64,000 nucleotides of DNA, from NCBI RefSeq assembly GCF_019649055.1, contig NW_026570232.1, forward strand, positions 1,612,001 to 1,676,000, written 5' to 3'. The notes below the pieces were generated by a model. The model was not told the origin of the DNA. It did no database searches and saw only the letters and a program-made list of their open reading frames with translations. This stretch comes from Paramacrobiotus metropolitanus. Lineage: Eukaryota > Tardigrada > Eutardigrada > Parachela > Macrobiotidae. Below, in pieces: positions 458 through 49,900 of the stretch. The first letter of the stretch is position 1; every line of letters starts with the position of its first letter. A program made the translations under genes and the position numbers.

Positions 458-3400
458 TCAGAGGATGTTGACGTGGTGATTGAGAGCTGCCGCCGTCCAG
501 CCGCGGAAGTAGTCCTTCTCCGGGTCGAATTTCCGACCATAGGGTATCCTTAGCATTCTGGTTTTTGCACTCATCAGCGGTTCCAAGCATCCATACAAGC
601 TCTGCGTTGGAAACGAGGAAACCACCTAGTACATAACAATGTTAATGCACGGCCAAGTAATGAGAATCTAGTGGCCGTTTTTTTAGTTGAGCAAGCTTAA
701 AGCAGCCTTCGGTTAACCCATGCTACCGGCTCAGTGCAGCAGTCGCCAATAGAAAGGTCACTCCAGACGGCCACTTCCCTTATGTACCGTAGCTAGCATG
801 TTTATGTAATTTAGGTATCAACTTTAGTCAACTTCTTAAAATTTATATTCTGGAAGCCTATAATTAATAGCATGCTGCTCACATTATATATTGCTCGTCA
901 TCTACATAAGTATACTTCGGACCGATTCCAGTACAATTCACTTTTACAGTCAAAGCTCATGGTTATTTTGGTTAGTTACCTGTAGCGATATTGTGTCCAC
1001 TTGGTAAGCAGTTTTATCGATAACAATGTAGGCCAGACCATCAGACAAGTTGACTGCAGTCTCAACCGGAAGTGCCGGTAATCCCATATCCGCCTGTTGC
1101 AATATGACCATCAATTTGTAGACACTTATATTCGGTACATAACTCAACAGACGCACAATTAGACGCGCAGTAACAGGGTGCCGTATTAATAATGCCGTAC
1201 TAGCCTTAGCATATTTGATGTTCTTCAACGGATAAGGATATGTGAGAGTGCCCGTTTTAATACGGGCTTGGCTACTCGAAATTAAGTCAAATCAAATCAA
1301 ATTATACATAATTAAAACAATTACATGTAATAAAGATCTTCTCTTATATACCGAGTTAAAACGTACGGCATCACTATGTAATGCGACTACTGCAGGCCTT
1401 CTAAATCTTTATTATAGAGGCGGAAGTGCAATTTTATTTATATACTTGTCCTTATTATAAGCTCCTTAATTTCTCTTAATTATAAATCTGACCCCTTAAT
1501 GTAAAGCTGAGATATAACGTCTCCGAAATTACCAGATTTCCCCGTTGAACAAAGGGGAACTGCTCGATGCCGAAGACGTAGAAGCTGTCGCCTTTGACGA
1601 AGATGAGCGAGGTGTTGGTCATGAAGGCGGCGTCGAGGTTGGAGCGCGGGATCTGTGGGAAGGCCTGCTCAATGAGCCCGCTGTAGGGCTCGCGCGGAGA
1701 TTTATTCCAGAAGACGTAGAAGCGGTCGTCCTTAAAGAAGAGTGTCTGCCCGTCGGCCAGCGTGATGGCCGCGTCGGGCTTGTTGGGCAGACCGGACCAG
1801 TCGCGGCCGATGGGCTGACCGGCCAGTTGCCGGTTGTCCACCACGTTCCCCTCAAAGTCCATAATGTGCCAGTATACATCGTCTGCAATATAAATATACC
1901 GCCTACAGTAACGCGCGTGTACCACAATTTTATTTTCTGCGACGGCTTAACATGCACTTAAGGGAAATAAAAATATTAACTCATAATAAACAAATGATAA
2001 CAATTAATGATGTACCATGCGTTATTCGAGGGATTGTACGGCCTGTCCAGAAATGTTTCTTGTATTTTCAGATTAAGTAATTATTTCTGCAGGTGCACTC
2101 GTAAAACGTGCTAAAAGCCATGTTGCATTGGAACGTATGTACTGAATAATAAAATACAAGAAACGGATATATAGATATAGCAATTGGAAAATATTAAAAA
2201 CTAGATCGTTTTAATTTATTATTAGCTGACCAGCGAGACTGAGATCTCATAGTTAGTCATTGGGCTGACCCATGCATCCCATACTTAAAAGATCTGGCTC
2301 ATATACCCGTCCACTACGTTTACACCGCGTTTCGTATTGGTTGCAGTACACGCTACCACTTCCAATCGAAAAAAAACTGTTTCATTCAGCATACAAAAAT
2401 AAATACTAGCAAAAAATAGCAATTTCTTCGGTATTAAAATGTTTTATTTATGAAGTACTGTTACCGCGCTCGCACTCTTTTTGCTTTCTGGCAGACCATA
2501 TACAGTACAATATGTTAATGTCTAAAAGGATGTTTACAACATTAGTCCATAGCACCACGCAGTACAGTGTTTATTACTTACACCGGCGCATGTTGGTCTA
2601 CATTCAAATTTCAAGTGAATAGTGTATTCGAATACGATTTACAAAAAAAATTGTTTAAGTTTTCTCGTGTATATAAATTATTTGAAAATTATATTGAGAA
2701 AGCATTTTTGATATTCCTACAGATCAAGTTGCGCAAACTATTTAAACTGACTCAAGTATAAAAGCAGTTGCCTTACCGGCAAAAACGTAGGTGTTCCCAT
2801 CGCCAGTCTGCGCGAAGACGTCCGGCACGAAATCCGCGGAGCAGATGTGCGGCGACAAATGCCCGTCCGGACTGAGATGGGGTGCCACGGTGGCGCCGGC
2901 CACTGCGCTCAGAGTGTCATCCGGTAATGGGGCGCCCGCGTGGGGATGCTGCGGGAAAGAGGGGCGTAGTTGCGGCTGATATTGCACACCGATCCATACC
3001 ATGCCTGTCCACAGAACATAAGCACGATTTATTATAGATCATAAACTCGTGAACGTAGTAATTGTTTACCTACGTATACTTGTACATACAGTACACCGTG
3101 GTTTATATGTGTAAACTTATGTACGGCCGCAAAGCCAAGGTCCAGCACGAAACAATTACGTTGTACGGTATGCAGCAATACGTATGGTACAAAAGTTTTA
3201 ATGTACGTCGATGAAATAATAAAACTGACTTAAATCTTGTAAAATGATATGACCAGATTCAAACAGTTTCTTGGTTATCACTTACGCTTGTTTCTGCTAC
3301 GCGATTGACAGGAAATGCAATTCCATATTAAGCAGGACACGACGACGAAGGTCCACGATTGCAACCGATTGGAATACATTGTAGATATATCAATGGCGCA

Positions 3401-3734
3401 AAAAATTTATAGGACTGTATAATTTCATAAAATGCATGTAAATATTAAAATTATTTAGATAACCATGCAACGATGGCATGCGCTATAATAAAAATAGTCC
3501 ATAGAAGCGATGCAAAATCGGACAGTTTCTCGAGATAAACGATAATTGCATTTTTCTTAATTGTTGAAGTAGTGCAGATAAGAAATAAGAAGTTGTTTGC
3601 CACTTTGGGCTTTGAAAACAATGCTAAAAAATAATATTACCTTCCGAAGCTGCGGAAAATGTAGAAGAAGGAAAGTAAGTCAGCCGAATCGGTGTCGGCT
3701 GATGATATAGAATGGATTCGGCATGCGCCGGCAT
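458..3734 (-). CDS. Hemopexin-like repeat protein, five exons
   Basis: Spliced minus-strand model: 3734-3641, 3004-2777, 1882-1533, 1093-980 and 601-458 (stop TGA at 460-458), in frame throughout, 309 residues. The central part holds hemopexin-type blades of the form D-A-x-G-x-x-Y-x-F-K: TYVFADDVYWHIMDFEG (joined exactly across the second intron), LADGQTLFFKDDRFYVFW, NTSLIFVKGDSFYVFG and LSDGLAYIVIDKTAYQVD. Hemopexin propellers bind proteins or ligands outside the cell. No metalloprotease catalytic motif (HExxH) is present, so this is a stand-alone propeller, not an MMP. The N-terminus is low complexity and shows no clear signal peptide; the ATG at 3734 is the first in frame after a stop, but an unseen upstream exon could supply one. 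The gene is divergent from a similar-sized gene at 4613. The C-terminal exon is recognised only by its open frame, GC-rich third positions and matching splice phase. Confidence 0.6.
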
Positions 3735-4034
3735 CGTGTGGTCCAGACATGTGCAATCTGTTTATCCGTTGACCCGGTAGTGGACATTGTGGGCAATCGT
3801 ACCAACAACAACAGATTTGCATTCAAAGGGGAAAATAAAAACAATGGGCACCTCTTAGACAACGCACAGTCGGTGTGGACAACGCGTAACGGTGTTGATA
3901 GCAGCAGCCCACTCAACAGCCGGCATATGTCGTACTTCCGGTTGCGGTCTGATTTCTCGCTGTCCAGTAGCTGCTAATTATCAACCAATTGCAAGTTAAT
4001 GCGGCAGAGGTTTGCTTGTATATTTGATTACGCC

Positions 4035-4044
4035 TTTTTATATA
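4035..4044 (-). promoter_or_regulatory. Putative TATA box of the minus hemopexin-like gene
   Basis: On the minus strand this reads TATATAAAAA, about 290 bp upstream of the proposed ATG at 3734. That distance leaves room for an untranslated first exon or a missed signal-peptide exon. Confidence 0.35.
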
Positions 4045-4479
4045 ATTTATTTAACCAACCAACATATAACTGCACAAAATAGCAAACAGCATTGGTAACT
4101 AAATTTGTTAATGTTTACATATTAGACAAATTTATTTAAGATGCAATATGGATTTAAGTTTATTACTGTGCTCCCCGTAACTATCTATTCTGTAAATGTA
4201 TGATAAAATGCAGTTACGGAATATCAGGTTGGTTTAGTTAATGACAGTACACAGTACACATAATTACATTTGCATATATTACCCACAGATTTGAGTTGTT
4301 ACGCTATACGTGGCCTTACAATCTTTCATTCTTGCACGTAGCTTTTTATGAAGCCATTGTGCTCTCCATAACGTAAAATTCAGCTGTATTAGGTTAGTGC
4401 AGCAATCGTGTTTATATATTAACAAATTAACCAACACAGTTTCAAACTGAAAAGCTGCATTTGATTATGTTTCCATCGT

Positions 4480-35359: not shown

Positions 35360-35515
35360 TCAAGCGAGCGAGCGAAGCGAGCGAGCGTTTTTAATCTGCG
35401 GTGCGACATGCGGAGAGCTGGGTCCCCGGGGTCCAGGGGCGAAGCCCCTGGCCGGGGTTTGGGGCGGAGCCCCAATAAGCAGGGGGTGCGGGGGGCGCAG
35501 CCCCCCGCTGAAACA
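35360..35515. repeat. Cluster of GC-rich mini-hairpins
   Basis: Starts with tandem GCGAGCGA-type words around 35363-35387. Three perfect hairpins follow, each closed by a three-base GNA loop: 35433-35451 (8 bp stem, loop GAA), 35459-35475 (7 bp stem, loop GGA) and 35488-35508 (9 bp stem, loop GCA). The block is far more GC-rich than its surroundings and directly precedes the 122 bp tandem array. Confidence 0.8.
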
Positions 35516-35573
35516 ATTGAGAAGGTAGTCAAAAAAAATTGAAAAACTAACCGGGTTATTTTTGACGGACCTG

Positions 35574-37766
35574 CTGCAGTTAATGTATTCGGGTCCGTTT
35601 TTTAGAACCCGGTCCGGGAATTTTGCCCGCCCTGGGTGGATCGTTTTTGAGGAACCGACATGCGGGGAACCACCGGGGCATTTTTCACGAACCCGCCATA
35701 CAAACAGTATGGAGGGTCCGTTTTTTAGAACCCGGTCCGGGAATTTTGCCCGCCCTGGGTGGTTCGTTTTTGAGAAACCGACATGCGGGGAACCACCGGG
35801 GCATTTTTCACGAACCCGCCATACAAACAGTATGGAGGGTCCGTTTTTTAAAATCCGGTCCGGGAATTTTGCCCGCCCTGGGTGGATCGTTTTTGAGGAA
35901 CCGACATGCAGGGAACCACCGGGGCATTTTTCACGAACTCGCCATACAAACAGCATGGAGGGTCCGTTTTTTAGAACCCGGTCCGGGAATTTTGCCCGCC
36001 CTGGGTGTTCGTTTTTTAGAAACCGACATGCGGGGAACCACAGGGGCATTTTTCACGAACCCGCCATACAAACAGTATGGAGGGTCCGTTTTTTAGATCC
36101 CGGTCCGGGAATTTTGCCCGCCTGGTTGGTGCGTTTTTGGGGAACCGACAAGCGGGGAACCACCGGGGCATTTTTCACGAACGCGCCATACAAACAGTAT
36201 GGAGGGTCCGTTTTTTAGAACCCGGTCCGGGAATTTTGCCCGCCCTGGGTGGTTCGTTTTGAAACCGACATGCGGGGAACCACCGGGGCATTTTCACGAA
36301 CCCGCCATACAAACAGTATGGAGGGTCCGTTTTTTAGATCCCGGTCCGGGAATTTTGCCCGCCTGGTTGGTGCGTTTTTGGGGAACCGACATGCGGGGAA
36401 CCACCGGGGCATTTTTCACGAACCCGCCATACAAACAGTATGGAGGGTCCGTTTTTTAGAACCCGGTCCGGGAATTTCGCCCGCCCTGGGTGGTTCGTTT
36501 TTGAGAAACCGACATGCGGGGAACCACCGGGGCATTTTTCACGAACCCGCGATACAAACAGTATGGAGGGTCCGTTTTTTAGATCCCGGTCCGGGAATTT
36601 TGCCCGCCTGGTTGGTGCGTTTTTGGGGAACCGACATGCGGGGAACCACCAGGGCATTTTCACGAACCCGCCATACAAACAGTATGGAGGGTCCGTTTAG
36701 ATCCCGGTCCGGGAATTTTGCCCGCCTGGTTGGTGCGTTTTGGGGAACCGACATGCGGGGAACCACCAGGGCATTTTCACGAACCCGCCATACAAACAGT
36801 ATGGAGGGTCCGTTTTAGAACCCGGTCGGGAATTTTGCCCGCCCTGGGTGGATCGTTTTTGACGAACCGACATGCGGGGAACCACCGAGGCATTTTCACG
36901 AACCCGCCATACAAACAGTATGGAGGGTCCGTTTTTTAGATCCCGGTCCGGGAATTTTGCCCGCCTGGTTGGTGCGTTTTGGGAACCGACATGCGGGGAA
37001 CCACCGAGACATTTTCACGAACCCGCCATACAAACAGTATGGAGGTCCGTTTTTTAGAACCCGGTCCGGGAATTTTGCCCGCCCTGGGTGGATCGTTTTT
37101 GACGAACCGACATGCGGGGAACCACCGGGGCATTTTTCACGAACCCGCCATACAAACAGTATGGAGGGTCCGTTTTTTAGATCCCGGTCCGGGAATTTTG
37201 CCCGCCTGGTTGGTGCGTTTTTGGGGAACCGACATGCGGGGAACCACCGGGGCATTTTTCACGAACCCGCAATTCAAATAGTATGGAGGGTCCGTTTTTT
37301 AGATCCCGGTCCGGGAATTTTGCCCGCCTGGTTGGTGCGTTTTTGGGAACCGACATGCGGGAACCACCAGGCATTTTTCACGAACCCGCCATATGAACAG
37401 TATGGAGGGTCCGTTTTGGATCCGGTCCGGAAATTTTGCCCGCCTGGTTAATGCGTTTTTGGGGAACCGACATGCGGGGAACCACCGGGGCATTTTTCAC
37501 GAACCCGCAATTCAAATAGTATGGAGGGTCCGTTTTTTAGATCCCGGTCCGGGAATTTTGCCCGCCTGGTTGGTGCGTTTTTGGGGAACCGACATGCGGG
37601 GAACCACCGGGGCATTTTTCACGAACCCGCCATATGAACAGTATGGAGGGTCCGTTTTTTTGGATCCCGGTCCGGAAATTTTGCCCGCCTGGTTAATGCG
37701 TTTTTGGGGAACCGACATGCGGGGAACCACCGGGGCATTTTTCACGAACCCGCCATACAAACAGCG
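35574..37766. repeat. Tandem array of ~122 bp satellite, about 18 copies
   Basis: About 18 head-to-tail copies of a 118-124 bp unit. Each begins near GGGTCCGTTTTTTAGA and contains CCCGGTCCGGGAATTTTGCC, CCGACATGCGGGGAACCACC and a hairpin CCATAC-AAACA-GTATGG at the unit boundary. Two variants are mixed: one with GAACCC and CCCTGGGTGG, the other with GATCCC and CCTGGTTGGTGCG. The first copies are mostly the first type; the second type dominates to the right. Unit length is not a steady multiple of three and small indels abound, so the long open frames crossing it on both strands (up to 229 codons) are repeat artefacts, not proteins. The array ends inside a unit at about 37766. Confidence 0.95.
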
Positions 37767-38195
37767 AAATTTTGTAACATGATTCACAAATTATAAGGCT
37801 TTGTTTGAGTAAATGTGGAAATACTCGAAGGTCTTCAACAAGTATATAACTTTGTAGACCAGTTGCGTTCGGTCATTCAAGCCAAACGTCACCATAAGGT
37901 CATAACGTAGCATTACCTTGAAAGGATGACGTAGCAAACCATGCTAATCGAAGTCAGGAAGCGGTACCATCGTTAGCAATTTCACCTACATTTGCACTTA
38001 CTTTACAGGATCAACTGAGCTGCATTCATTTTGCAATGACTCATGGTAACGCGTTACCAGCTTTCACCACTCTAATTAAGCGTTGCCAATAATAAATATT
38101 ACGCTGCCATAACTATAACATATTACCGTAACCGTCTTAGTTTCTGTCGCGGTAAGTGTTACCGTAACTATTGTTAACGGATTGCCGTCACCCTT
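37767..38195. other. Unique spacer between two satellites
   Basis: AT-rich sequence with no recognisable gene or repeat. Confidence 0.5.
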
Positions 38196-45295: not shown

Positions 45296-45304
45296 ATATG
45301 TATT
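45296..45304. repeat. Left 9 bp target-site duplication
   Basis: ATATGTATT immediately left of the element, identical to 46374-46382 on the right. The perfect match suggests a fairly recent insertion. Confidence 0.85.
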
Positions 45305-45387
45305 GGGGAAGGCTCCGCACACCACGTTTCACCACCAAAGTCTCCGCACACCACGAAACACCACCGCCAGGCTCCGCACACCACTTT
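45305..45387 (+). repeat. Left terminal inverted repeat
   Basis: Pairs with 46293-46373 on the other strand. Built of CTCCGCACACCAC and CACCACC words. Includes the shared core CACCACCAAAGTCTCCGCAC, which is identical in both arms. Confidence 0.8.
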
Positions 45388-45492
45388 TTATTATTTTTAA
45401 TTTTTTTTAAAAAACCACCTTAATCTCCTAACACCATTAGGAGCATATGGCACACCACCAGAGTCTCTGCACACCACTATTTTGGATGAAAA

Positions 45493-46125
45493 TTAAGCAA
45501 TTGTTATTACGGGCGGAAAAAAGACAGCTCTTTCGTCTCGCGGTCTGGCTCCTCTTTTTTGGTACCACTCGTTAGCCTCCGCTTCCGTTATAGTTAGCGA
45601 TTTTTTCGGTTTTACTCGCTCGGCCGCCCTGCCAGGACGGTGTTTGAGTTTTTGCCGTGGGAGACCTTCTTTTCTCAATTTAGTCACATGCTCTTGGTCG
45701 GACTTTGATAGTATACGGTTTTTTGGGTATAATTGCCACAGGTCTTTTGAGCGTTCATGATTATGTTCCGCCAAAGAGTCTAATCGCTGGACTACCAACT
45801 GTCTGTTCTTTTTCTGAATGGAGACGTGGAGCATCACAGGGCATTCCAAGTCCTTGCTGTGGGTGACTGGTCGTGACCCTTTGCCTCTTGGGACATAACT
45901 GATGTTGTGTGCGCAGTGCCATTTGATGTATTTGTATTGCAAATTTTTCGCATAATTGTCGGCTGCTGGTAACCTTTCGGAGCGATGAGTTTGGAAGACC
46001 GTAAAAGTCTCTTTCTCGTATCCGGCAAGAGCAGCCTCCAAGGCTGCATAAGAGGCGAAACTCATTCCCACATGCAGGTGTATTGTACACCGTATGTTAA
46101 ATAAAGTACTGTTCTTTGTACGCAC
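45493..46125 (-). CDS. FAR1/ZSWIM3-like DNA-binding protein of the MULE element
   Basis: One open frame of 210 codons inside the inverted repeats. Residues about 20-140 resemble the FAR1-type (WRKY-GCM1) zinc-binding domain in the N-terminus of ZSWIM3-like and MULE transposase proteins: SYAALEAALAGYEKETF, a Cys in KWHCAHN, a second Cys in LECPVML, and the closing LAEHNHERSKDLW. After this comes a basic region (KLRKEGLPRQKLKHRPG) and a short tail. The DDE nuclease and SWIM finger of complete family members are absent. The frame may start at 46125 or at the internal ATG at 46065. It could bind the element's own inverted repeats or be a captured fragment. Confidence 0.7.
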   Translation of the reverse strand: MRTKNSTLFNIRCTIHLHVGMSFASYAALEAALAGYEKETFTVFQTHRSERLPAADNYAKNLQYKYIKWHCAHNISYVPRGKGSRPVTHSKDLECPVMLHVSIQKKNRQLVVQRLDSLAEHNHERSKDLWQLYPKNRILSKSDQEHVTKLRKEGLPRQKLKHRPGRAAERVKPKKSLTITEAEANEWYQKRGARPRDERAVFFPPVITIA

Positions 46126-46292
46126 ACAGAATTTACTCGTTAATTACATAGCCCATATTAGTCGTATATTCGACCGACTACTGCATATCTTCGAAACTAC
46201 GAGTAAAATGTGGTGTCCCGAGACTACCGACGTTTCAGATACTTATAGTGGTGGCGTAAAAATGGTGGCCCGAGACAAAACGTGGTGCGAAT

Positions 46293-46373
46293 AGTGGTGT
46301 GCGCAGCCTGGTGGTGGTGAAAGGTGGTGTGCGGAGACTTTGGTGGTAAAACGTGGTGTGCGCAGCTTTCTCC
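46293..46373 (-). repeat. Right terminal inverted repeat
   Basis: Inverted copy of the left arm, with GCTGCGCACACCAC in place of GCTCCGCACACCAC at the outer and inner subrepeats. Confidence 0.8.
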
Positions 46374-46382
46374 ATATGTATT
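46374..46382. repeat. Right 9 bp target-site duplication
   Basis: ATATGTATT immediately right of the element, identical to the copy at 45296-45304. Confidence 0.85.
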
Positions 46383-46996: not shown

Positions 46997-49900
46997 TTAT
47001 TCAGCGCTGGGATATTGAATGGGCGAATTATTGGCGGTATTCTCCCGCTCCCTCGTGGCTTCCACACCGTTATTATTATTATTATGACTCCGTGTCGTCC
47101 GCATGATGGCCCCGTTGGGCAGCTGGAGGGCGGCGTTGGTGGGCGTGATCGTGTTGACGTAGGCGTGTTTGGGCGGCGAGAGGCCGCCGTTCTGCAGATT
47201 CTCGCACTGGCGCTGATAGGCGTCCCGTTGTTTGCACACTTCATCCAGTTGCCGGCGCAGGTGGTTCATCTCGTTCTGTAGGATGCGGTTCTGCGTCTCC
47301 AGATCGTGTCGCTGCTGCATCCGCTTGGAGCGGCAGTTCTGCGCGTAGCCGCGATTTTTCAGTGTACGTCGCTTTTGTTTCAACCGGATGATCTCGTCGC
47401 GTTGGCAACCGTGGAGGCGCTTGTTGAGCTCGCGGACAGAAAGGGTCACCAGCTCCTGTTCCTCGATCATGTCCGACGGCAGCATCTTGCGCTCTTGAAT
47501 AACGGACTGAAAGTCAAACTAATTTTTTAATGGCAATTAGAAATCAGAAGCTAGAGTTGGCGCTGTAGTGCTGCTTATGTTGCTAGATATTATTTTATCC
47601 GTACTGTAATTTGTTTTTAAATGGTTAGTGGGAGATGCGAATGTATGCACCGCACCTGAAGCCGGGAATTAGCAGATCAGGTTAACCAAAAAGAGTACTT
47701 CTGACTATTAGTATTATTAAATCTATCGGTAACAACACAAAAAATTGCGTAGGGAAATGGTTACGGAACTACGCTGTGAATTTTCCCTGTCATTCGGTCT
47801 GTACGGTGAACATCTTGTTAAACTGCCGAAGCCTGTTTACTACGATAATTCCTAAACAATTGGTGTACCACAGTTGGTGGAGTGGTCATTGGTGTACAAC
47901 TGTACATCAATTCACACGGAAGTTCCACAGCAGCAAATCAAGAAAGTTGAGATTTTGAATTGCGTATACAAAATTGGTTTATGTAGTCTCCGATTTTGTT
48001 ATGGTAAAACCGTTGAAGAAAAACTGCCCGTGAAAAAGAAGTACTCGTAATCATCGGAACAAAAAATTTATCATTTACGGCAGATGCGAAATTTTTTCGA
48101 AACCGCGAGACAGCAACCCCATCAAATCGCGGCTTCATGAATTTGGTGCCGCCGCAATACATGTTTTCACTACGAGCTTTCAAAGCGACGCTGTATCTGT
48201 ACATGAGGAATTCGCACAGCACACAACGCGCCTGACACAAGGGGTTTCTCAATTTTCCCACACAACAATGCCAGCCCGTCCGTCAGCCCGCATTCTCTAA
48301 TTGCTCTAGAAAGACCCGGCACGGTGACAGCGGCCGGCTCGCAGTTGCTATAGAGCTGTCCACACCGCCGTGCTCGTGTGCCGGCACCACGTATTCACAC
48401 CAGTATAACAGTATCTGCATCCCGCGTAACCACGCCGTGTTGCATGGTGTTGGCCGCTCTCAAGAGACGCCAATGTGTAAACTGGCTGTTATATCTCCAT
48501 AACACTCAAGTGGCCAATTTCCAAACATTCTCATCTAACTCTTACTGACCAGTACAAACAGGTGACAGCGGGCCCATTGCGAAATATATATATGCGGTTA
48601 GCGGTGACGCGCTTACATCATCTCCTCTCACTCACGCTCTCACTCATCTCTCGCCGGATCATTACCGCATCCGTGTTGACACGGTGTAGACTTCGGTATT
48701 ATCATTACTGGCCGGGCCAGCTTATGCATTACCAATTACATCAAAAGCATTGTAGTTAAGCTGCTGTTTCAATTTACATTTCCATACTACCGCCATCATC
48801 CACTGTAGCCAATCCATCACGAAGAACTACACGATCGCCGCTACAGAGTGCACGGTGAAGAGCATCTCCGCGGCTAAGTGCGGTAATAAGAGGGACCTTC
48901 TTCAATAAAACGCTAAACGATGGGGGAGGCGGTTGGCGCGGAGAGAGAGATATTAAGGGCCGTTAACGCCGCATCAAGTATTGTTCATCGCTGCCACCTT
49001 TTATTAATAACACCAACATTGTTGGCACTCTTCGGCCCACTGTTGCAATGGGGCTTTTGTAATCGATATCATTCTGCATGGGTTGTTGAAAATTAGGCTA
49101 CTGCCGAAGAAATTCGCAATAAATTTACTCATTTTTCAAAGATAAGGTATAAAAAATTTGTAATAAAATACGAATTTCTGAAGCGTATATTCAGAATTTA
49201 ATTACACTGAGTTTATTGCACGACTCCTTTAAATATGCTGGATCATTCACTAACGACAGGATCCACTGCACTACGTAATGATATGCATCTGCTTATAACA
49301 AAAAGAGATATTTGAATACCGTAGCGCTGCATGTGGAGAGATTTGGTGCAATTAAAATGGTTGGTTTGCGCAAGAGCTGCTTGTTGTTTGAAAACATTTG
49401 TTTCCACTGACGGGGCAGTTTTCGTTTGTTGACAAAAGCCATGAGCGATCGCTTCACTGTGTGCGCACACAAAACTCTGGAACCTGCTAAAGAATGTTGT
49501 ACTTACATTGTACCGGTACTAGTTATAGGCAAAAGGTCAACTGCCAAGCGGCTTTTAAGAACTGGCAACACCTGCTAATCGCTTTCAGAACAAAACTGTT
49601 TGCACCTTTCTTAGCGGCATTGCTGCATCAAAATGCTGTAATGGACGCCGAATTACTATAGTGAAGAGAGCCAAAAAAGTTTAGTAGGAAGCTAACCAAA
49701 AGTAAGGGTGTTTAATGACAACTGTACGTGCAGGAATGGCTGGATTTACAAAGGCCCGTGTTTTCATTTAAATGTTTCATAAGAAACTTTTTGCCCGTTT
49801 AGATCAAATAAAAGATTCCAAAAATTAATAAACGAAATTGATCTGGAAAACAGAAGCCTGACCAAATGAAATATGCTTCAAATTTACCGCGACTGCCAGA

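Follow-up and report, generated by a model that had tools for sequence, protein, structure and literature searches.

Partly deleted transposase genes are well documented in Mutator-like elements (MULEs) of plants, where transposase deletions were reported for 475 of 530 candidate coding-MULEs of maize and for 195 of 476 of rice (data given in PMC3903597). For MULE groups including animal ones, target-site duplications of 8-11 bp are listed, 9 bp in many groups, together with zinc-finger types for several of them (PMC6446971). Among arthropod MULEs, 17 of 322 types are given with intact ends and truncated transposases of 236-295 aa (PMC13359780). In the passages of PMC6446971 and PMC13359780 consulted on animal MULEs, no derivative that retains the ZSWIM3_N domain only is described. 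Outside the MULEs, interrupted transposases that have kept their binding domain can repress the Drosophila P element (as stated in PMC12393704 and PMC7776569), and binding as well as inhibition of the transposase by the KP protein were demonstrated by experiment, according to titles cited in PMC7776569.

Here, we analysed a stretch of 64,000 nucleotides from the tardigrade Paramacrobiotus metropolitanus (contig NW_026570232.1, positions 1,612,001 to 1,676,000; hereafter the window) and a short element within it. The element is very probably a non-autonomous MULE (Mutator superfamily) derivative that arose by internal deletion. Broken MULE copies like this one are a common and already known kind. 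As in the coding-MULEs of maize and rice, the transposase has been partly deleted, although that set comes from plant families and mixes deletions of binding, catalytic or other regions (PMC3903597).

The body of the element comprises 1,069 bp (window positions 45305-46373) and is flanked by two exact copies of the 9-bp sequence ATATGTATT, the left one at 45296-45304 and the right one at 46374-46382, which adjoin both ends. With even base composition, the probability of an exact 9-mer repeat at that single position would be about 5e-6 by hand estimate, and it is higher in AT-rich DNA. The inverted arms (45304-45388 and 46290-46374) measure 85 nt and are 87% complementary; without the base that belongs to the duplication, the left terminal inverted repeat spans 45305-45388 (plus strand) and the right one 46290-46373 (minus strand). 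The ends also contain repeats of CACACCAC, mostly spaced by 29-30 bp. Five are present on the left, three of them in the terminal repeat itself (45318, 45347 and 45377, with 29-30-bp spacing) and two further inside (45451 and 45470), and three inverted copies are present on the right (46294, 46324 and 46353). An earlier note on this DNA had described inverted repeats of about 80 bp, an exact duplication at both ends and borders defined to the base, all of which agrees with our measurements. Each of the flanks (705 and 707 bp) matched its own place only, so that the assembly yielded no empty site, whether allelic or duplicated.

The element belongs to a family. In the assembly of 169,799,020 bp (533 contigs), it matched at least 136 stretches with 40 of 83 candidates scored, and these were grouped by hand into at least 37 places, so that other copies of the terminal repeats, for which the earlier note had proposed to look, are indeed present. 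When the left end was used as the query, with 40 of 85 candidates scored, at least three more places came to light, on contigs C290, C139 and C111. We fetched 20 related places and recognised both ends in 17 of them, one end being unrecognised in L015, L017 and L018. An exact 9-bp duplication flanks 12 of the 17 two-ended relatives and is therefore a family trait. Four others show a duplication with one mismatch, in register in L020 and L021 and only with the border shifted by at least one base in L014 and L026, and one (L012) has no duplication. The 13 exact duplications, that of the window element among them, consist of 95% A+T, and their length of 9 bp falls within the 8-11 bp given for animal MULEs such as Phantom and others (PMC6446971). 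Bodies shorter than 1.3 kb were seen in 14 of the 17 two-ended relatives. The N-terminal coding stretch of the element (query positions 357-786) was matched over more than 100 bp at only four of the 37 listed places (the window, C61, C121 and C1); the other 33 had no such match.

The open reading frame of the element occupies positions 45493-46125 on the minus strand and consists of 210 codons, opening with GTG; the first in-frame ATG, at 46065, would give a protein of 190 aa. The frame joins a remnant of the transposase N-terminus to a C-terminal tail. Among Pfam-A profiles, ZSWIM3_N alone exceeded its own cut-off (PF21599, 30.6 bits against 27.8, E = 5.1e-7; ORF residues 18-122, window 45760-46074, minus strand), and no catalytic domain was detected in the ORF. 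The FAR1 profile (PF03101) reached 10.3 bits against a cut-off of 28.1. Judged by these scores, the ORF is of ZSWIM3 type and FAR1 is merely a distant label, so that of the FAR1/ZSWIM3-type ORF of 210 codons announced previously, the second name is the right one; the profile match itself and the lack of a nuclease were both found as claimed. The Cys, Cys and His-x-His positions of the domain, which we take to be zinc ligands, are intact in the window ORF, as seen when it was aligned with 19 further ORFs from the same genome; in L035 and L057, the second Cys is displaced by about one residue. In the remaining leader, four ATGs opening frames of 1-7 codons precede the ATG at 46065. A search of PDB sequences returned a single match (3a03, E = 0.4), which was taken as chance.

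The origin of this arrangement can be read from longer relatives. L009 (contig C121) is a copy of 2,650 bp with the same ends as the window element and the duplication ATAAATTAT, and its N-terminal stretch is 98% identical to the window copy at the DNA level. Its middle part matches PF21056 (118.4 bits) and PF10551, the MULE domain (65.6 bits), both above cut-off. This is the DDE-bearing relative that the earlier note had suggested looking for, although its coding region is split across several frames, presumably by mutations or introns. In the alignment, the window copy corresponds to positions 1-305, 547-976 and 2299-2650 of the 2,650 bp of L009, and its body aligns to L009 except for a few bases. 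Two pieces are thus absent. At junction 1 (45652-45655, minus strand, with the 4-bp microhomology GCAA), about 1.3 kb of L009 including the RNase-H/MULE domain is missing, and at junction 2 (46081-46086, minus strand), about 240 bp, so that the native ATG, the codons just after it and some of the leader are gone. The window copy is without a nuclease because of internal deletion. The earlier note had correctly recognised a MULE-like element, its 9-bp duplication and a binding-type ORF without nuclease, but it had missed that the element is an internally deleted form of a transposase element. Junction 1 occurs once in the assembly when up to three mismatches are allowed.

In a second long copy of 4,685 bp, L010 (contig C61), which is flanked by the duplication AATATTTTA, other sequence has taken the place of the middle part. 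From about 900 to 3620, this window-family copy contains a second mobile-looking unit with many repeats of the AAGGTGGATGACC type and inverted end sequences. The DDE piece of L009 matched 43 other stretches at 27-57% identity, and no other close DDE-bearing relative was seen. A larger relative, L035 (contig C139), was dropped as a candidate parent: it has one similar end (78.5% over 219 bp), a second end was not seen in the 6.8 kb fetched, and its transposase is split by other sequence.

The 9-bp duplication, the terminal inverted repeats and the MULE-type DDE domain of L009 place the family among MULEs. An autonomous MULE is ruled out, as the window ORF has no catalytic domain of its own above Pfam cut-off; a strict non-coding MITE is ruled out by the transposase-remnant ORF in the 1,069-bp body, and a Pack-MULE carrying a captured host gene by the alignment of nearly all of the body to L009. 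The earlier distinction from both full MULEs and typical non-coding MITEs is therefore retained.

The following history is proposed. The inverted repeats and repeated motifs at the ends are what the family transposase would presumably bind, and since such ends are present, the element would have been inserted at this site by a transposase, producing the 9-bp duplication. The two losses, of about 1.3 kb including the catalytic domain and of about 240 bp including the native start, would have occurred before or after insertion; if deletion came first, the element would have been mobilised in trans by a transposase made elsewhere. The ORF would then be an inherited remainder of the transposase N-terminus without function, and its frame would have stayed open mainly owing to the youth of the copy, which in this part shares about 98% identity with its nearest relatives. 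L009 is split over frames, and the assembly, possibly an incomplete one, yielded no intact autonomous copy of the window family that could serve as a living helper.

No constraint on the window ORF was detectable. Over 143 shared codons, with the direction of change taken from L009 and L010, the window lineage has accumulated seven changes, five non-synonymous and two synonymous, where about 74% non-synonymous changes are expected under neutrality. The substitutions thus look neutral, and as they are few, weak constraint is possible. In simulations with seven random point changes and no indels, the stretch stayed free of stops in 69% of cases, so that an open frame does not in itself point to function. 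No measurement made here supports a job performed by the leftover protein.

The genome holds further ZSWIM3_N-like frames, among them those of two related families, B and C. Family B, a sister family, is represented by the reference L064 (contig C54), which has a DDE-domain match. Its copies L061 (C50), L062 (C242) and L063 (C130) still have their native ATG as well as a ZSWIM3_N domain scoring 43-54 bits, and the nuclease has been removed at one identical deletion junction with the 4-bp microhomology GATC. The left flanks (1.2 kb) of the three copies show no similarity to each other. This suggests, as the simplest reading of the sequences, that a single deletion occurred and that its product then transposed to three sites; nuclease-less derivatives of family B would thus apparently be transposable. 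The right end was seen in L063 only, L061 has parts of the right side, and in L062 nothing of the reference was found past the junction region, so that target duplications are not established for L061 and L062. Since the common deletion, the pairwise ratios of non-synonymous to synonymous differences among the three copies are 9:1, 6:1 and 7:0 (152 codons). Compared with L064, the ratios are 7:5, 8:4 and 3:4 for L061, L062 and L063, respectively, and 2:11 for L060, which represents a separate family B deletion. From these counts, constraint appears to have acted over the history of the transposase and to be absent after the family B deletion.

As for the remaining copies, L065 belongs to family C (reference L066) and has kept its binding domain. 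Four other domain-bearing copies of family B (L067-L070) have broken frames. In the deletion copies L071-L075 of the same family, the binding domain has been cut into or lost, and for this reason we do not claim any enrichment of domain retention. A protease-like identity considered for the C-terminal frames of L060 (418 aa) and L066 (179 aa) was dropped, there being no Pfam match. After the binding domain, L061 and L062 differ from the reference by an indel of +4 and L063 by indels of -5 and -9, at alignment-dependent positions; these different indels lead to the same alternative frame and a matching end, and a shared older event is possible. L068 (C3) and L069 (C203) have the same map, following the reference to 1235 and then again from 2511; what they keep is the binding domain along with the beginning of the DDE domain. 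In L064, a stretch of about 341 bp (about 3792-4132) recurs at 94-99% identity at 20 or more other listed places in the genome and is perhaps a recent short mobile element.

By itself, the window element represents ordinary decay, in which MULE families yield short dependent copies. More useful is the occurrence, in one animal genome, of three related MULE families with derivatives that keep the DNA-binding domain, one such derivative (of family B) being apparently present at three or more sites after nuclease loss. This raises the idea that binding-domain-only derivatives are a recurrent self-limiting class: the window family, family B with its three one-junction copies, and family C through L065 would each have shed the nuclease while retaining an open ZSWIM3_N frame, and these derivatives would jointly titrate or block the transposases of their families, in the manner of KP and the P element. 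We regard this as improbable. If repression by such proteins were true, the KP principle would be extended from P elements to animal MULEs.

For the window ORF in particular, a KP-like repressor would be a protein that occupies the end repeats of the family with its transposase DNA-binding domain, blocks active transposase and thereby limits its own family. The likeness lies in a short, internally deleted element with an ORF of about 200 aa and an N-terminal DNA-binding domain without catalysis (PMC7776569, PMC12393704); KP itself, the product of a small P element that is non-autonomous, has 207 aa (described in PMC7776569), and an interrupted transposase and a binding domain are two properties of P-element repressors (named in PMC12393704). 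Both of these marks seem to be present in the window ORF, to judge from its sequence, and the intact Cys/His positions are in line with such a role, as are the native ATG, well-scoring domain and three-site common deletion of the family B derivatives. However, KP belongs to the P superfamily and carries a THAP domain, and, unlike KP, the window ORF has lost its native ATG at junction 2, has four upstream ATGs before the next one and shows no sign of function. Two further points argue against repression: the window junction occurs a single time in the assembly, and substitutions look neutral both in the window copy and among the family B derivatives. In maize, MuDR deletion derivatives are reportedly not dominant-negative regulators, going by the title of Kim and Walbot 2003 (cited in PMC3903597), the only test of this kind in a Mutator element known to us. 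A copy moved in trans gains nothing from keeping its ORF, so that neutral decay is compatible with repression in trans. On balance, a KP-like role of the window ORF is possible but unsupported, and we consider it quite improbable. The role of competitor or of dispersal vehicle for binding sites, which the earlier note had suggested, finds no backing in a junction present once, neutral-looking substitutions and an N-terminal stretch unmatched at 33 of 37 listed places.

The relation between short and long copies could also be reversed: the large copies would be derived, and the short binding-domain element would be either the ancestral form or a kind of its own to which nucleases are added. That a single close nuclease-bearing relative was found fits this order of events. 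However, past junction 1, the window ORF runs for 13 codons out of the frame of the L010 tail ORF and then returns to it, and the lost start together with the 4-bp microhomology at the join looks like a deletion. Furthermore, in the related transposase of L035, a single frame runs from a part resembling ZSWIM3_N (27.0 bits, just under the cut-off of 27.8) into the RNase-H domain. We therefore hold a short ancestral form to be extremely improbable and adhere to internal deletion. The earlier reading of the ORF as an open frame with a binding-type domain was correct, but it had overlooked the loss of the native ATG and the change of frame past the junction. A host gene domesticated from a transposase fragment would agree with the open frame and intact Cys/His positions, but is hardly credible for an element whose inverted repeats and target duplication are intact, whose native start is missing and which shows no sign of constraint.

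Some features of the surroundings were also recorded. The GC content of the window is 40-45%, and NOTCH-protein, EGF and Piwi domains of animal type were detected in it. A long repetitive array lies at about 35360-37790; several of its frames, on both strands, translate into repeated units resembling GPFFRTRSGNFARPGW. An exon of a bZIP Maf transcription factor was found at 46997-47518 on the minus strand (PF03131, 103 bits). Since the end of the element lies about 0.6 kb past the stop of this exon and the ORF of the element is on the same strand, the element may be located within or close to the 3' end of the bZIP Maf gene.
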